NCBI GenBank assembly: GCA_016125455.1
Contig: WGLS01000019.1
Location: forward strand, 1-64,000
Origin: Alphaproteobacteria bacterium
GTDB lineage: Bacteria; Pseudomonadota; Alphaproteobacteria; Caulobacterales; Parvularculaceae
Reading direction: 5' to 3'
DNA: 64,000 nucleotides
Part shown: positions 56,497 through 63,926 of the stretch, in pieces
Position numbering within the stretch: the stretch's first letter is position 1
How the letters are laid out: each line of letters starts with the position of its first letter
The notes under the pieces: generated by a model
Told to the model about the DNA's origin: nothing
Databases searched by the model: none
Seen by the model: the letters and a program-made list of their open reading frames with translations, nothing else
Position numbers and translations under genes: made by a program

Positions 56497-56762
56497 GCCG
56501 CGCCGGTCCACAAACCGGCAGCGCGAACGTCGGAAACTCCAGGCGCCATGAATGCTCCTGCGAAAACATCGACCGGGGTCGTACGCCAGAAAGGCGGATC
56601 GCAAGCGAATGATACAGCCGTTTCCCGCTTTTGGTCGACCTTCGAATTTGACGTGGCGATGGCGCGCGCCGCAACCAGCCCGGCAAGGACGGCGCACGGT
56701 GTTCGTTTTGCGATTCCTCGACTAGTTTGACGCACGCCATGCCCCGAGCCCCGGAATTCCCG

Positions 56763-59522
56763 ATGTCCACGACCATCGCCACCCAGGAGTCTGATGCGCC
56801 CGTCGCGTCGGAAGCATTTGCGGGCGCAACGCCAATGATGACGCAGTTCCTGTCGATCAAGGCCGCGGCGCCCGATGGCGCGCTCCTGTTCTACAGGATG
56901 GGCGATTTCTATGAGCTCTTCTTCGAGGATGCCGTCATTGCCTCGGATGCGCTTGACATCACCCTTACGCGGCGCGGCAAACATCGCGGCGACGACATCC
57001 CGATGTGCGGCGTTCCGTTCCACAGCTACGAAACCTACCTCGCGCGCCTCATTCGCAAAGGGCATGTCGTGGCGATCTGCGAACAGGTCGAGGATCCGTC
57101 AGAGGCGAAGAAACGCGGCGCGAAGTCGGTCGTGCGCAGGGAGATTGTCCGTATCGTGACGCCGGGCACCCTGACGGAAGACACGCTGCTTGAGGCGGGG
57201 AGCAATAATTTTCTGGCCGCTCTTGCGCCCGCTGGAACGCGCGGCGAGACGAATGGCGGGCCGACAGGAGAGGCGGGCGCGACCGGGGCCCTTGCGTTCG
57301 TCGATGTTTCCACGGGCGAGCTATTCGTCCAGGCGACCCGCGCCGACCGGCTCGCCGCCGACCTCGCCGCGGCGCCCATCCGAGAGCTGATCGTCCCGGA
57401 GGATGACGCGCTCACCCCGAACTGGCGCGCGGCGATCGCCGATGCGGAGCGCAAGGCGCCTGTCGGTCGCCTTCCGGCGGGAGAGTTCCAGTCGACCGCC
57501 GGCGAGCGCCGCATCCGGGAGACCTTCAGCGTCGCCGCCATCGAGGGGTTCGGCGACTTCGAAAAGGCTGAGCTCGGCGCCCTTGGGGCGGCTCTCGCCT
57601 ATGTCGCGCTGACCCAGATCGACCGCATGCCGCCCTTGCGCGCGCCGGAGAGGCGCGTCGAGGGCGACTTCGTGTCGATCGACGAGGCTACTCGCGCCTC
57701 GCTCGAAATTCTCGCAACGAACGCGGGCCAACGAAAGGGCAGCCTCGCCCACGCCGTCGATCGAACGCGTTCGGGCCCGGGCGCCCGCCTTCTTGCTGCG
57801 CGCCTGTCGGCGCCGTTGCGAGACGCGGCGCGCATCGCCGCCCGGCACGACGCCATTGCCTATTTTCTCGACCGGCCCCGTCTTTGCGAGGACGTGCACG
57901 GACTGATCGCCGGCGCGCCGGACATGGCGCGCGCTCTGTCGCGCCTCGGCGTCGGTCGCGGCGGTCCGCGGGACCTCGCCGCCATCCGTGACGGGCTCGC
58001 GGCGGCGATGGATATCTCTTCGCGTCTGCGCGGCGAATGGGACGGCGCGCCCGAAGCGCTGCGCGGGGCCGCCGCGCGCCTCGCGGACGATCGCTTCGGC
58101 GATCTCGGCGCGACGCTCAAGGGCGCGTTGAAGGAAACGCCGCCATTGCTGGCCCGGGATGGCGACTTCATCGCCCCCGGCCATGACTCCAGCCTCGACG
58201 AGTTGCGGACGCTGAAGGATGACGCCCGGCGGATCATGATTCGTCTCGAAGCGGACTACCGCGCCGCGACGGGCGTAAAATCGCTGAAAATCAAGAATAA
58301 CAACGTTCTTGGCTATTTCATCGAAATATCGCCGGCAAATGCCGGACCGCTTGCCGAAGGGGAGGGGCGAACGCAGTTCGTACATCGCCAGACCCTGGCA
58401 AGCGCCGTGCGATTCACGACAGGCGAACTTGCGGATCTCGATAGCCGGATCGCTCGGGCCAAGGACGACGCCCTTGGGCGCGAGCTTGCGCTGTTCGAAG
58501 CCTTGCGGGCGTCGACGCTGTCGCTGGCGGCTGAAATCGCCGCCGCCGCCGTCGCGATCGCTGAGGTCGACGTTGCATGCGCCGGCGCGCGCCTCGCCGA
58601 CGAATGGAACTATGTCCGCCCTCTGATTGATACGACGCTCGCGTTCGAGGTGACCGGCGGGCGGCACGCCGTCGTCGAGCAGTTCCTGGCGAGAGACGCA
58701 GGCCGGGCCGCCTTTACCCCGAACGACTGCCTTCTCGGGCGCGATGATGCGTCGTTCCTACGCCTTGTCACGGGGCCGAACATGGCCGGCAAGTCGACCT
58801 ATCTCCGCCAGAACGCACTCATCGCGATCCTCGCGCAGGCGGGCATGTACGTGCCCGCGACGACCGCGCGGATTGGCGTCGCCGACCGGATCTACAGCCG
58901 CGTCGGCGCTAGCGACGATATCGCCAGGGGACGGTCGACGTTCATGGTGGAGATGGTCGAGACGGCGGCGATCCTTAATCAGGCGGGACCGCGCGCGCTT
59001 GTCGTGCTGGACGAAATCGGCCGCGGCACAGCGACGTTCGACGGCCTGTCGATCGCATGGGCGGCGGTGGAGCACCTGCACGACGTCAACCGCTGCCGGG
59101 CGCTGTTCGCGACCCACTATCACGAGCTGACGACGCTAGCCGAACGCCTGCCGGGCCTGAAGAATGTCTCGATGCGCGTGCGGGAGTGGCGCGGCGAGGT
59201 GATCTTTGCGCACGAGGTGGTCGACGGCGCTGCGGATCGTTCGTACGGCGTTGCGGTGGCGCGCCTCGCCGGCATGCCGAAAAGCGCGATCCGACGCGCC
59301 GGCGAAGTTTTGCGCATGCTTGAGGAAACGGGGGCCGGGGCGGTGCGTCTCGATGACCTGCCCCTGTTTGCGGACGCGGGCGACTCTCTTCCGCGAAAAA
59401 GCGATCCGATTACGGATGACGCCGTTCGGCAGGCGCTGCGTGCGCTCGATCTCGACGGCCTGGCGCCGCGAGAGGCGCTGGCCGAGCTCTACCGCTTGAA
59501 GTCGATGCTTGACGAACGATGA
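56763..59522 (+). CDS. mutS: DNA mismatch repair protein MutS
   Basis: A 919-residue mismatch recognition ATPase. Mismatch-binding domain I has the Phe-x-Glu motif in LLFYRMGDFYELFFEDA. Walker A is the GPNMAGKST motif starting at residue 671, followed by GASDDIARGRSTFMVEMVETA and LDEIGRGTATFDGLSIAWA. ATP-hydrolysis HYHELT is present. The start (ATG 56763, 56739 or TTG 56727) is uncertain; only the first ~12 residues depend on it. The stop overlaps the glnD ATG (ATGA). No mutL is in the window. Confidence 0.96.
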   Translation: MSTTIATQESDAPVASEAFAGATPMMTQFLSIKAAAPDGALLFYRMGDFYELFFEDAVIASDALDITLTRRGKHRGDDIPMCGVPFHSYETYLARLIRKGHVVAICEQVEDPSEAKKRGAKSVVRREIVRIVTPGTLTEDTLLEAGSNNFLAALAPAGTRGETNGGPTGEAGATGALAFVDVSTGELFVQATRADRLAADLAAAPIRELIVPEDDALTPNWRAAIADAERKAPVGRLPAGEFQSTAGERRIRETFSVAAIEGFGDFEKAELGALGAALAYVALTQIDRMPPLRAPERRVEGDFVSIDEATRASLEILATNAGQRKGSLAHAVDRTRSGPGARLLAARLSAPLRDAARIAARHDAIAYFLDRPRLCEDVHGLIAGAPDMARALSRLGVGRGGPRDLAAIRDGLAAAMDISSRLRGEWDGAPEALRGAAARLADDRFGDLGATLKGALKETPPLLARDGDFIAPGHDSSLDELRTLKDDARRIMIRLEADYRAATGVKSLKIKNNNVLGYFIEISPANAGPLAEGEGRTQFVHRQTLASAVRFTTGELADLDSRIARAKDDALGRELALFEALRASTLSLAAEIAAAAVAIAEVDVACAGARLADEWNYVRPLIDTTLAFEVTGGRHAVVEQFLARDAGRAAFTPNDCLLGRDDASFLRLVTGPNMAGKSTYLRQNALIAILAQAGMYVPATTARIGVADRIYSRVGASDDIARGRSTFMVEMVETAAILNQAGPRALVVLDEIGRGTATFDGLSIAWAAVEHLHDVNRCRALFATHYHELTTLAERLPGLKNVSMRVREWRGEVIFAHEVVDGAADRSYGVAVARLAGMPKSAIRRAGEVLRMLEETGAGAVRLDDLPLFADAGDSLPRKSDPITDDAVRQALRALDLDGLAPREALAELYRLKSMLDER

Positions 59523-62266
59523 GCGTTGTCGATCCCGTCATTGCAGATGTAAACCGTCGGGTTGACCCATTGCGGTCGGAGACGTGGACGGCGTTTCGCG
59601 CTGCAGCCGCCCGCATTGCAGGCGTTGCTGGCGACGCGACTGGCGCGGATTTGCCGCGCGCCCGCGCGGACGCGGCGCGCGCCCTCAAAGCTGCGCTGAC
59701 GGCGGAGCTGAAGGCGGACTTTGATGCGGGCGTCCCGGGAGATGTGGTCGCGGCCCGTCGCGCAGCCGCCGTCGACGAGGCGCTGCGCCAACTGCTGCAA
59801 GGCCGAGACGACGTTGCGGTCACTGGCGTCGGCGGGTATGGCCGCGGCCTGCTTGCGCCGTTTTCCGACGTGGATCTCCTGTTTCTCACCCGCGACGACC
59901 CGAAGGCGGCGCGCAGCGCCGTTGAGACGACGCTCTATGTATTGTGGGATGCGGGCCTCGTTGTCGGCAATGCAGCTCACGACGTCGCCGGGGCGGTGGC
60001 CGCCTGCAAGGCTGACGTCACTACCTGTACGTCGTATCTCGACGCACGCCTGGTCGCCGGCGATCCGCGTCTGCATGCGGCATTTTCCGAACGGTATGAC
60101 GCCTACCGCCGCCGTTCGGCGAAACGCTTTACCAAGGAAAAGCTCGCCGAGTTCCGCGAGCGCCGACGCGACTATGACCGCGCCGGTCGGCACCTTGAGC
60201 CCAATCTCAAGGAGATGCGCGGCGGGTTGCGCGACATCGATACGGTTGGCTGGATCTATCGCTACCTGACCGGCGTCGATCCATGGTCGGCCGACGGTCT
60301 TGAGGACCTTGTCGACGCGGAGGAGGCAGATCGACTGAAAAAGGCTCGGTCGCATCTCTGGTCGGTGCGGGGGCACCTTCATGACATCGTTGGCCGCGCC
60401 GACGACCAGGTCACGTTCGATCTGCAGCCTCTGCTGGCGTCTCGGCTTGGCTATGCCGACCGTCGGCGCGCCGCGGCGGCCGAACGATTGATGAAGCACC
60501 TGCGCCTGAATGCGCTGACGGCCGCGCGACTTGTGCGGGTCTGTCTCGCGCGACTCGAGGAGCGCACTGCTGAACTCGCCCACTGGCGGCCGCGCGGCAC
60601 GCCCCAGCCCTTGCGGACCGACGAGATGCCGGGCCGCGTCAATGTCACGATGCGGACGAACCGGCTTGACTTCCTGAACAAGGCCGAAGCGCGGCGCACC
60701 CCGGCCGACCTGTTCCGCATTTTCAGGGCGAGAGCGAAGCGACCAGATCTTGGCCTGCATCCCGACGCCATAGAGCTGATCGCGTCGTCCGCGCGGCGCC
60801 TGACGGATGACGTGCGCGGCGATGCCGAGATTGCCGAGTTGTTCCTTGCCATGATTGAACGCGCCCGGGAACCGCTGACGGTTCTTCAGGACATGTCAGA
60901 GTGCGGCCTGCTTGGCGCCTATCTGCCGAGCCTGCGGCGGGTCACGGGACAGGTCGAATACGGCCTCTATCGTCGCTATTCCATCGAGGAAACGATCTTC
61001 CGGTCAATCGACGCCTATGCCGGCCTTCGCTATCGCGATCTTGCCGAGTCCCATCCGATCGCCGCGTCGCTGTTGAAGCGCAAGGCGCGCCGCCGGGCGG
61101 CGCTTGTAGCGATACTGCTTCAGGAGACGTCATGGGCCGTTGCTGATCGCTCGACGGAACACGTCGAAAGAGCGGCCCGGCGGATTGCGCGCCGGTTCCT
61201 GTCCGATGAACGACAGGTCGCCGACGTTGCGTGGTGCGCCGCGCGGCCCGACCGCCTGATCGTCGCGGCCGAACGCCGGAACATCGGCGCGGACGAAACC
61301 ATCCTCGACTTCGCAGCGGACGTCGGTTCGGTCGCCCGGCTCGAGACACTCCTTGTACTGACAGTATGCCGGCATCTCGTGGTCAGCGAGAATCGCTGGA
61401 ACGCGTGGACGCGCCGACAGGTGGGCGCGATGTTTTTCGGCGCGCGGGCGGCGCTTGCGGGCGGCGCGCCGGCGCTCGCGGCATTCCGGCGCGAGGAGGA
61501 GGCGGCGCTTGTCGCCGCTCTGCGCGAGGCCGCGCCGTTCTGGTCAGCGAAAGAGGCGCAGGCCTATGCGGCGCGACTTGTGGAGGTGGGCGCGTCGCGG
61601 TTGCCGGCCCGGCTCCTTGCGCAAGGGGCGTCGCTCTTGCATGGCGCCCGCAACGCCCGTCCGCCGGTTGCGGTCGACGTGCGCGCCGCAGCCGACGGCT
61701 TCGAGGCGGTCGTTACCGCCCCGGACCGAACGGGCCTGCTCGCAGACCTAGCCGCCGGCGCAGGCGAAGCGGGAGTCGCCGTGCGTCTGGTGCACGCCAT
61801 GTCGCTTGACGGCCAGGCGCTTGATTTTTTCGTTCTCTCAACGCCCGGCGCGGCGGCCGGCGCCGGCGGGGAAACTGACCGCAGCGTTGTCGCCGCGCGG
61901 ATTGAAGCCGCGTTCAGGAGCCGGGCTGCGAATGCGGAGCGGCGCGCGCCACGCACGGCGCAGCGAATCGGCGACCGCCGGGCGCTCTTCGACGTGACGC
62001 CGAAAGTCGAGATCGACGCCGACGCCGCGCCCGGCCGCCTGCTGGTGGAGATCGAAGGGCGCGACCGGCCGGGCCTGCTGCACGATCTCGCCGCGGCGAT
62101 CGCCGACGCCGGGGGCTCGATCGGCTCGGCGCATATCGCGACCTATGGCGAACGCGCCGTCGACGTTTTCTACGTCACGCCGATTGGCGAGGCGGAACGG
62201 TTCCGGGAAGACGTTCTCCAGGATATCGAACGCCGGCTCATGGCCGTCCTGTCGGAATGCGGCTAG
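59519..62266 (+). CDS. glnD: GlnD-type PII uridylyltransferase with an altered HD domain
   Basis: A 915-residue nitrogen-status sensor. The nucleotidyltransferase site is intact (GVGGYGRGLLAPFSDVDLLFL, with D117 and D119), as are the family block EPNLKEMRGGLRDIDTVGW and two ACT domains that bind glutamine (about 720-780 and 825-905). The uridylyl-removing HD domain (about 480-640) is degenerate: E. coli HQYTVDEH is YRRYSIEET here, the HD of LFHDIAKG is QE in LLQETSW (~535), the RQH is ARP (~573) and the TVADI aspartate is R (TVCRHL, ~617). It may modify but not de-modify PII. It overlaps mutS by 4 bases. Confidence 0.9.
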   Translation: MSVVDPVIADVNRRVDPLRSETWTAFRAAAARIAGVAGDATGADLPRARADAARALKAALTAELKADFDAGVPGDVVAARRAAAVDEALRQLLQGRDDVAVTGVGGYGRGLLAPFSDVDLLFLTRDDPKAARSAVETTLYVLWDAGLVVGNAAHDVAGAVAACKADVTTCTSYLDARLVAGDPRLHAAFSERYDAYRRRSAKRFTKEKLAEFRERRRDYDRAGRHLEPNLKEMRGGLRDIDTVGWIYRYLTGVDPWSADGLEDLVDAEEADRLKKARSHLWSVRGHLHDIVGRADDQVTFDLQPLLASRLGYADRRRAAAAERLMKHLRLNALTAARLVRVCLARLEERTAELAHWRPRGTPQPLRTDEMPGRVNVTMRTNRLDFLNKAEARRTPADLFRIFRARAKRPDLGLHPDAIELIASSARRLTDDVRGDAEIAELFLAMIERAREPLTVLQDMSECGLLGAYLPSLRRVTGQVEYGLYRRYSIEETIFRSIDAYAGLRYRDLAESHPIAASLLKRKARRRAALVAILLQETSWAVADRSTEHVERAARRIARRFLSDERQVADVAWCAARPDRLIVAAERRNIGADETILDFAADVGSVARLETLLVLTVCRHLVVSENRWNAWTRRQVGAMFFGARAALAGGAPALAAFRREEEAALVAALREAAPFWSAKEAQAYAARLVEVGASRLPARLLAQGASLLHGARNARPPVAVDVRAAADGFEAVVTAPDRTGLLADLAAGAGEAGVAVRLVHAMSLDGQALDFFVLSTPGAAAGAGGETDRSVVAARIEAAFRSRAANAERRAPRTAQRIGDRRALFDVTPKVEIDADAAPGRLLVEIEGRDRPGLLHDLAAAIADAGGSIGSAHIATYGERAVDVFYVTPIGEAERFREDVLQDIERRLMAVLSECG

Positions 62267-62327: not shown

Positions 62328-63926
62328 ATGCGCGCGCGTTTCCTGAAATCCCTCGCTACGGTCAGCGGCTTCACCCTGGCCAGCCGGCTGCTTGGATTTG
62401 CCCGCCAGATCCTGATCGCCGGCGTCATCGGAGCGGGCGGCAACCCGGTCGCCGACGCATTCTGGGCGGCATTTCGATTGCCGAACATGTTCCGCCGGCT
62501 GTTCGCCGAAGGGGCATTCCAGGCCGCGTTCATCCCCTTGTTCCAGGGCAAGCTCGCCGAGGAGGACGCCGTCGCCGCCAAGGAACAGGCGCGACGGTTC
62601 GCCGAGGAGGTCCTCGCCGGCCTTATCCTCGTCCTTGGCGTACTGACGGCCCTCGTTCTGGTGGCGGCGCCGGTCGCGATTTTCATGGTCGCCGGCGGTT
62701 TCGCCAACGATCCGGAAAAATTCGACCTGACGATCCTCTATCTGCGGATCATGTTCCCTTATCTCGCCTGCATGTCCGTCGTCGGGCTGTTGTCAGGCGT
62801 CCTTAATTCGCTCGACCGGTACATGGCCTATGCCGGCGCGCCGCTGATCCTCAATTTCTGCCAGATCGCCGCGCTTGTTCTTTATGCGGACGGACAGATC
62901 GAAATGACCGGCCTTGCGCTGTCGGTCGCGACGACGATCAGCGGCGTCCTTCAGGCGGCGCTGTTGATCTGGGGCGCTGGCCGGCAGGGCTATCTGCCGA
63001 GGCTGCGGCTGCCGCGGATGACCGCGGACGTCCGGCGCCTCCTGGTTCTTGGCGCGCCGGGTTTCCTGTCCGCGGCGGCAGTGCAGATCAACATCTTCGT
63101 CGGCACCAACATTGCAAGCCGCGAACAAGGCGCCGTTTCGTGGCTGATGAACGCTGACCAGCTCTACCAGTTGCCGCTGTCGCTCATCGGAATTGCCCTC
63201 GGCACGGTTCTTCTGCCGACCCTTTCGAGGCGCGTGAAGGCCGGCGACGAGTCCGGCGCGGTGCGCGCGCTGAACCGGTCGATCGAGATTTCCGCGGCGC
63301 TGGTGCTGCCGGCCGCGATCGGATTTCTGGTGCTTGCCGAGCCGATTTGCGATGCGCTCTTCCGCAGCCTTGCAAGCGACGCGCTGAAGTTATTCGGCGG
63401 ACGCGGGTCGAAGTTCACTGAAGCGGATGCGGCGATGACGGGCGCTGCGCTCGCGTACTACGGCATCGGCCTGCCGGCGTTTGTCTGGCAGAAGGTCTTC
63501 CTGCCGGCTTATTTCGCCCGCGAGGACACGCGCACGCCAATGATGTTCGCGATCTGGTCGATCATTGCCAATACGGTTCTGGCGCTCGTCCTGTTCCCGA
63601 TCATGGGCTTTCTTGGCGTTGCGCTGGCGACGAGCCTGGCGGGATGGCTGCAGACAGTCCTGCTCGCGATTGGCCTCGGCCGCGGGCGAAGGTTCCTGCC
63701 CGACCGTCGGCTCCTCGTGCGGCTGCCCGCGATCGCAGCCGCGTCGATCGCCATGGGCCTTGCGCTGACATATGCCGCAACTTTTACGCCGGCCCTCGCC
63801 GAGATCACCTTCGGTCGATACTGGATCGCGGTAATCGTGCTCGTGGCGGGCGGCGGCGCGATTTATGGCGCGGCGCTGCTTGCGCTTGGCGGCGTGCGCA
63901 TCAGCGACTACAAGGCCTCTTCCTAA
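62328..63926 (+). CDS. murJ: Lipid II flippase MurJ
   Basis: A 532-residue membrane protein with ~14 helices that flips lipid II, the peptidoglycan precursor, to the periplasm. Opening FLKSLATVSGFTLASRLLGFARQILIAGVIGAG, then FRLPNMFRRLFAEGAFQAAFIPLF, and the SREQGAVSWLMNADQLYQLPLSLIGIALGTVLLPTLSR block are diagnostic of the MviN/MurJ family. The ATG at 62328 is 61 bases after glnD. The order mutS-glnD-murJ-trpS is common in alphaproteobacteria. Confidence 0.95.
   Translation: MRARFLKSLATVSGFTLASRLLGFARQILIAGVIGAGGNPVADAFWAAFRLPNMFRRLFAEGAFQAAFIPLFQGKLAEEDAVAAKEQARRFAEEVLAGLILVLGVLTALVLVAAPVAIFMVAGGFANDPEKFDLTILYLRIMFPYLACMSVVGLLSGVLNSLDRYMAYAGAPLILNFCQIAALVLYADGQIEMTGLALSVATTISGVLQAALLIWGAGRQGYLPRLRLPRMTADVRRLLVLGAPGFLSAAAVQINIFVGTNIASREQGAVSWLMNADQLYQLPLSLIGIALGTVLLPTLSRRVKAGDESGAVRALNRSIEISAALVLPAAIGFLVLAEPICDALFRSLASDALKLFGGRGSKFTEADAAMTGAALAYYGIGLPAFVWQKVFLPAYFAREDTRTPMMFAIWSIIANTVLALVLFPIMGFLGVALATSLAGWLQTVLLAIGLGRGRRFLPDRRLLVRLPAIAAASIAMGLALTYAATFTPALAEITFGRYWIAVIVLVAGGGAIYGAALLALGGVRISDYKASS

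Follow-up and report, generated by a model that had tools for sequence, protein, structure and literature searches.

A probable one-way PII uridylyltransferase with a pseudo-HD domain in the Parvularculaceae

The covalent switch formed by reversible uridylylation of PII is a textbook case, and no enzyme other than GlnD is known to write or erase the mark. PII-UMP usually acts on GlnE, the glutamine synthetase adenylyltransferase/adenylyl-removing enzyme, whose adenylyl-removing nucleotidyltransferase (NTase) domain works by phosphorolysis. In model GlnD proteins, uridylyltransferase (UTase) activity resides in the NTase domain and uridylyl-removing (UR) activity in the HD domain, two separate sites (PMC4285133, PMC3480911). 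Here we describe a GlnD from the alphaproteobacterial family Parvularculaceae in which no metal-ligand residue of the HD domain is left. Its gene lies in a 64,000-nucleotide stretch of contig WGLS01000019.1 (assembly GCA_016125455.1), hereafter the window.

The glnD gene (59519..62266; forward strand, like all features of the window given here) has an ATG start that overlaps the end of mutS, contains zero internal stops when translated and encodes 915 amino acids. It is present in a single copy in a 3.6 Mb genome that is 96% complete, and a search of that genome for a second GlnD found none. The upstream neighbor is mutS (56727..59522) and the downstream neighbor is murJ (mviN; 62328..63926, start inferred from translation), an order also present in most relatives examined. 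The product is an orthologous GlnD by clade and by synteny within the order. Horizontal acquisition of glnD was considered and is contradicted by the synteny and by the monophyly of the family's proteins. The protein falls under the curated cut-offs for GlnD, unlike its bifunctional counterparts, which is in line with a divergent member: it matches NF003467 over residues 45-913 (E 6.6e-171, 570 bits against a cut-off of 959) and TIGR01693 over its full length (E 2.6e-149, 499 bits against 519).

The protein resembles the bifunctional GlnD of E. coli and other Proteobacteria in length, in its GG..DxD UTase motif, in having a PII substrate with Tyr51, in the mutS/murJ synteny seen in relatives, and in the order of its domains: NTase, PF08335, HD-type region, ACT, ACT. 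Pfam recognizes NTP_transf_2, GlnD_UR_UTase (PF08335, 101 bits) and ACT (38 bits). The NTase domain spans residues ~86-200 (59774..60118) and is followed by PF08335, the UTase's helical domain (residues ~201-345, 60119..60553). An earlier note on this DNA had called the NTase site and both ACT domains intact. The first part holds, as G105, G106, D117 and D119 are all present, and GG..DxD is retained in 56/56 aligned GlnDs. The second part holds for ACT domain 2 (residues ~838-915, 62030..62263), which is clear by Pfam and in the predicted structure; ACT domain 1 (residues ~715-800, 61661..61918) is not clear by Pfam and can be seen in the structural model and in the proteins of relatives.

Unlike bifunctional GlnD, the protein has replaced all four metal-ligand positions of the HD domain and the conserved Lys. 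When it is aligned with E. coli GlnD and 54 relatives, the pseudo-HD region (residues ~441-690, 60839..61588) carries T492 (60992..60994) in place of the first His ligand, H471 of the DEH motif; Q535 E536 (61121..61126) in place of the HD doublet H514 D515; W539 (61133..61135) in place of the invariant K518; P577 (61247..61249) in place of H556 of the RQH motif; and R618 (61370..61372) in place of the Asp ligand D597 of the TVADI motif. The earlier note had read these motifs exactly (DEH as E490 E491 T492, HD as Q535 E536, RQH as A575 R576 P577, the VADI aspartate as R618). It had set its reading against the possibility of an intact H/HD/H/D quartet elsewhere in the HD domain, and a search of residues 470-650 found none. 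The sole invariant His in residues 441-690 across the three GlnDs of the genus is H512, which is not at an HD ligand position.

This loss of HD residues is far beyond chance. Among columns invariant in the outgroup and E. coli, the protein keeps 42/50 in the NTase and PF08335 domains and 18/48 in the HD domain (Fisher p 3e-6). The HD model PF01966 has no match here at E<=1 and none in the nearest relative (G002) or in a relative from g6, and it matches the orthologue of a neighboring family at E 4e-8. We rejected a sequencing error or frameshift as the source: the reading frame is undamaged, the residues are the same in G002, and the core losses recur in 29 more genomes. Beside the lost VADI Asp, C617 (61367-61369) is invariant in Parvularculaceae GlnDs and nearly absent outside the family, where the position is Ala.

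The same losses extend through the family. GlnD was found 31 times among 37 Parvularculaceae genomes, which include Amphiplicatus metriothermophilus, a Marinicaulis MAG and Parvularcula oceani. D515, K518 and D597 are missing in 31/31 of these proteins, H471 is lost in 9, H514 in 11 and H556 in 19, and the GG and DxD of the NTase are kept in every one. In contrast, orthologues from the sister families in the tree (e.g. Hyphomonadaceae, Henriciella) have the full H/HD/H/D quartet and the Lys in 24/24 GlnDs sampled, which represent four further families of the order. Across the class, four of 80 named GlnD loci deviate (L134-L137: three Parvularculaceae and one MAG of the same type) and the other 76/76 have the full quartet, as do 78/80 GlnDs sampled from ~75 Alphaproteobacteria families, whose sequences were read directly. 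A degenerate DNA pattern for LHDxGKG matched 38/241 genomes of the class and is too strict for classification; its match in the window's genome (contig C31) was spurious, lying in a 115-codon frame. Two unrelated alphaproteobacterial GlnDs (L295 in G137 and L272 in G121) show partial ligand loss, one H556Q with D597N and the other H556Q only, and are possible independent early stages.

We built a GlnD tree from columns 86-440 only, so that the HD columns were excluded. The Parvularculaceae form one clade with 100/100 support and a long stem. On this tree the losses of D515, K518 and D597 each take one change and the His losses take four or five. HD catalysis was thus most likely lost once, with the ligand His residues lost later and repeatedly. 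By this phylogeny, the loss is ancestral to the family and not peculiar to the window's genome.

Between Parvularculaceae genera the HD domain diverges faster than the UTase part (identity 0.365 vs 0.475 in matched pairs), whereas matched pairs from other families give 0.506 vs 0.486. Within the window's genus, however, the domain shows no sign of decay: between the window's GlnD and that of G002 it is the most conserved domain, with an identity of 0.81. For this pair dN/dS is 0.24 overall, 0.115 in the HD domain (0.081 in its core), 0.26 in the NTase, 0.16 in PF08335 and 0.52 in ACT2. The difference in pN between HD and NTase is -0.14 (95% CI -0.20 to -0.08), and since dS is near saturation (0.6 observed) the domain comparison depends mainly on pN in this one pair. 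The excess of HD over NTase conservation is the largest among 73 within-genus pairs of the family, and some outgroup pairs reach a similar excess, up to 0.18. Stronger constraint on a non-catalytic domain than on a catalytic one suggests that the ligand-free HD domain has a structural or allosteric role. The HD region may also have undergone old recombination.

An AlphaFold2 model built with nine family sequences (mean pLDDT 79, pTM 0.68) gives HD-type helices mostly at pLDDT 85-93 and a poor loop at 474-487 near the start of the domain. In this model, the HD domain is retained as a fold. The fold predicted for residues 373-651 is like that of the C-terminal part of tRNA CCA-adding enzymes (3wfq_F, Z 18.4, 253 residues aligned, 13% identity); these enzymes have HD-type and ex-HD C-terminal domains (3wfq and others) and share only the fold with GlnD, with no tRNA substrate implied. 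No HD hydrolase was among the matches listed in the fold comparison, which is no evidence of a different fold, and searching solved structures by sequence returned no GlnD. In the predicted structure the UTase half is similar to each of the two GlnE halves (1v4a, Z 23.6; 3k7d, Z 19.9). With the ligands gone, HD-type helices predicted and strong purifying selection relative to G002, the earlier note's reading that catalysis was lost and the domain kept is supported.

The substrate of the UTase is in place. The window's genome has one PII with a full, unchanged T-loop and Tyr51, and Tyr51 is present in all sampled PIIs from GlnD-bearing Parvularculaceae genomes. Three genomes of genus g4 (G005, G013 and G018; loci L086, L087 and L215) keep GlnE and PII and lack GlnD, and in these Tyr51 of PII is Leu. 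This replacement, a single event in a single genus, would be expected if GlnD is the reason why Tyr51 is kept. Many PIIs that never undergo uridylylation also have Tyr51.

We consider it likely that the product of the window's glnD uridylylates PII in one direction only and that its HD region is a pseudo-domain. That it uridylylates and does not deuridylylate is our best inference from sequence, because the NTase site is intact, Tyr51 and the T-loop of PII are intact, and the genome has a single GlnD. In this mechanism, GlnD would attach UMP to Tyr51 of GlnB at low glutamine and would not remove it hydrolytically. The ligand-free HD domain would be retained because it connects, structurally or allosterically, the UTase with the glutamine-sensing ACT domains, and PII-UMP would be reset by dilution, turnover or another enzyme.

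The rest of the nitrogen cascade is also altered. Canonical GlnE is present in most Parvularculaceae and missing from the window's genome (G000) and from G002 (99% complete), whose only GlnE-like protein is a paralogue of 937-1016 aa that lacks the DxD motif in both nucleotidyltransferase halves (L091:5310-8342, on contig G000:C16; also L092, L093-L106 and L109). The window's genome differs in this from GlnE-bearing systems. The paralogue occurs in g1, g2, g5 and g6 and nowhere else at a comparable score among 150 genomes of the order; it probably acts in regulation as a pseudo-adenylyltransferase. Both genomes have a lone amtB with no adjoining PII gene (glnK). The need for a fast reset of PII-UMP may be reduced in the window's genome, since canonical GlnE and an amtB-adjacent glnK are both missing. 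Judging from scores and positions, the best NtrC-model matches in the family are probably of the two types left in a genome whose ntrC beside ntrX has been lost. In the window's genome, a glutaminase gene with EF-hand-like and ankyrin repeats (L110:7071-8873, minus strand) lies between glnB (L110:9032-9394, minus strand) and glnA (also minus strand), and to judge from gene spacing G002 and several g2 genomes may have a similar insert.

Three genomes (G004, G026 and G030) of genus g3, to which Parvularcula oceani also belongs, lack GlnD, GlnE and PII altogether and keep AmtB and a glutamine synthetase with Tyr397. This Tyr is uninformative, as it is kept even in such genomes. A broader version of the model would have the whole family using an irreversible writer GlnD, with the HD eraser turned into an allosteric module (in the window's genus under tighter conservation than the catalytic domain), a dead GlnE paralogue alongside, and a one-way signal replacing the bicyclic cascade. 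We put this forward tentatively, as possible and on balance doubtful.

There are other ways to read the locus. First, PII-UMP might still be reset enzymatically outside the HD site, by the NTase run backwards or by a separate phosphodiesterase. A regulatory tag that is never removed makes a poor sensor, and the family retains Tyr51; for the backward reaction in particular, there is the similarity of the modeled UTase half to the GlnE half that removes adenylyl groups (1v4a, Z 23.6). However, no candidate gene emerged among those examined here, and every well-studied GlnD removes UMP via its HD domain (PMC4285133, PMC3480911), and we think such a reset unlikely. Second, the GlnD-PII module could be on its way out, with GlnD a remnant of little function, as might be expected from the three genomes of the family without GlnD, PII and GlnE, from three more without GlnD, and from N-terminal and ACT regions that diverge fast between G000 and G002. 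The undamaged frame, intact NTase motif, kept synteny and dN/dS of 0.24 overall and 0.115 in the HD domain argue against decay, and leave this reading quite improbable. Finally, an HD site that still removes UMP through substitute ligands (H / HE / H / H for H / HD / H / D) is hardly credible: most of g2 (e.g. G011, G029, G025, G033, G021 and G036) keep His471, His514 and His556 with His at D597, an arrangement that could bind metal, but almost every other alphaproteobacterial GlnD has both D515 and D597, and in the window's gene, whose genus has lost all ligands, T/Q/E/P/R and a single His invariant in the genus, off the ligand positions, make it impossible.

GlnD itself is well known. In the literature, which we covered incompletely, we found no paper joining GlnD with the term pseudoenzyme no description of a UR-less GlnD in Parvularculaceae, and no account of a whole family that lost the UR site and retained the domain. 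One-way PII uridylylation, the reading we favor for the window's gene, has a wider counterpart: taken together, the sequences suggest that the normally reversible PII switch has become one-way in the family. The Parvularculaceae offer a series of states, with a dead HD domain in all GlnDs, GlnD lost together with Y51L in PII, GlnE either missing or joined by a dead paralogue, and everything lost. Since the family diversified after a single loss of the eraser site, it provides a natural experiment on whether reversibility is essential to the switch, and the series allows a comparative test across cultured members, among them Parvularcula oceani and Amphiplicatus metriothermophilus.
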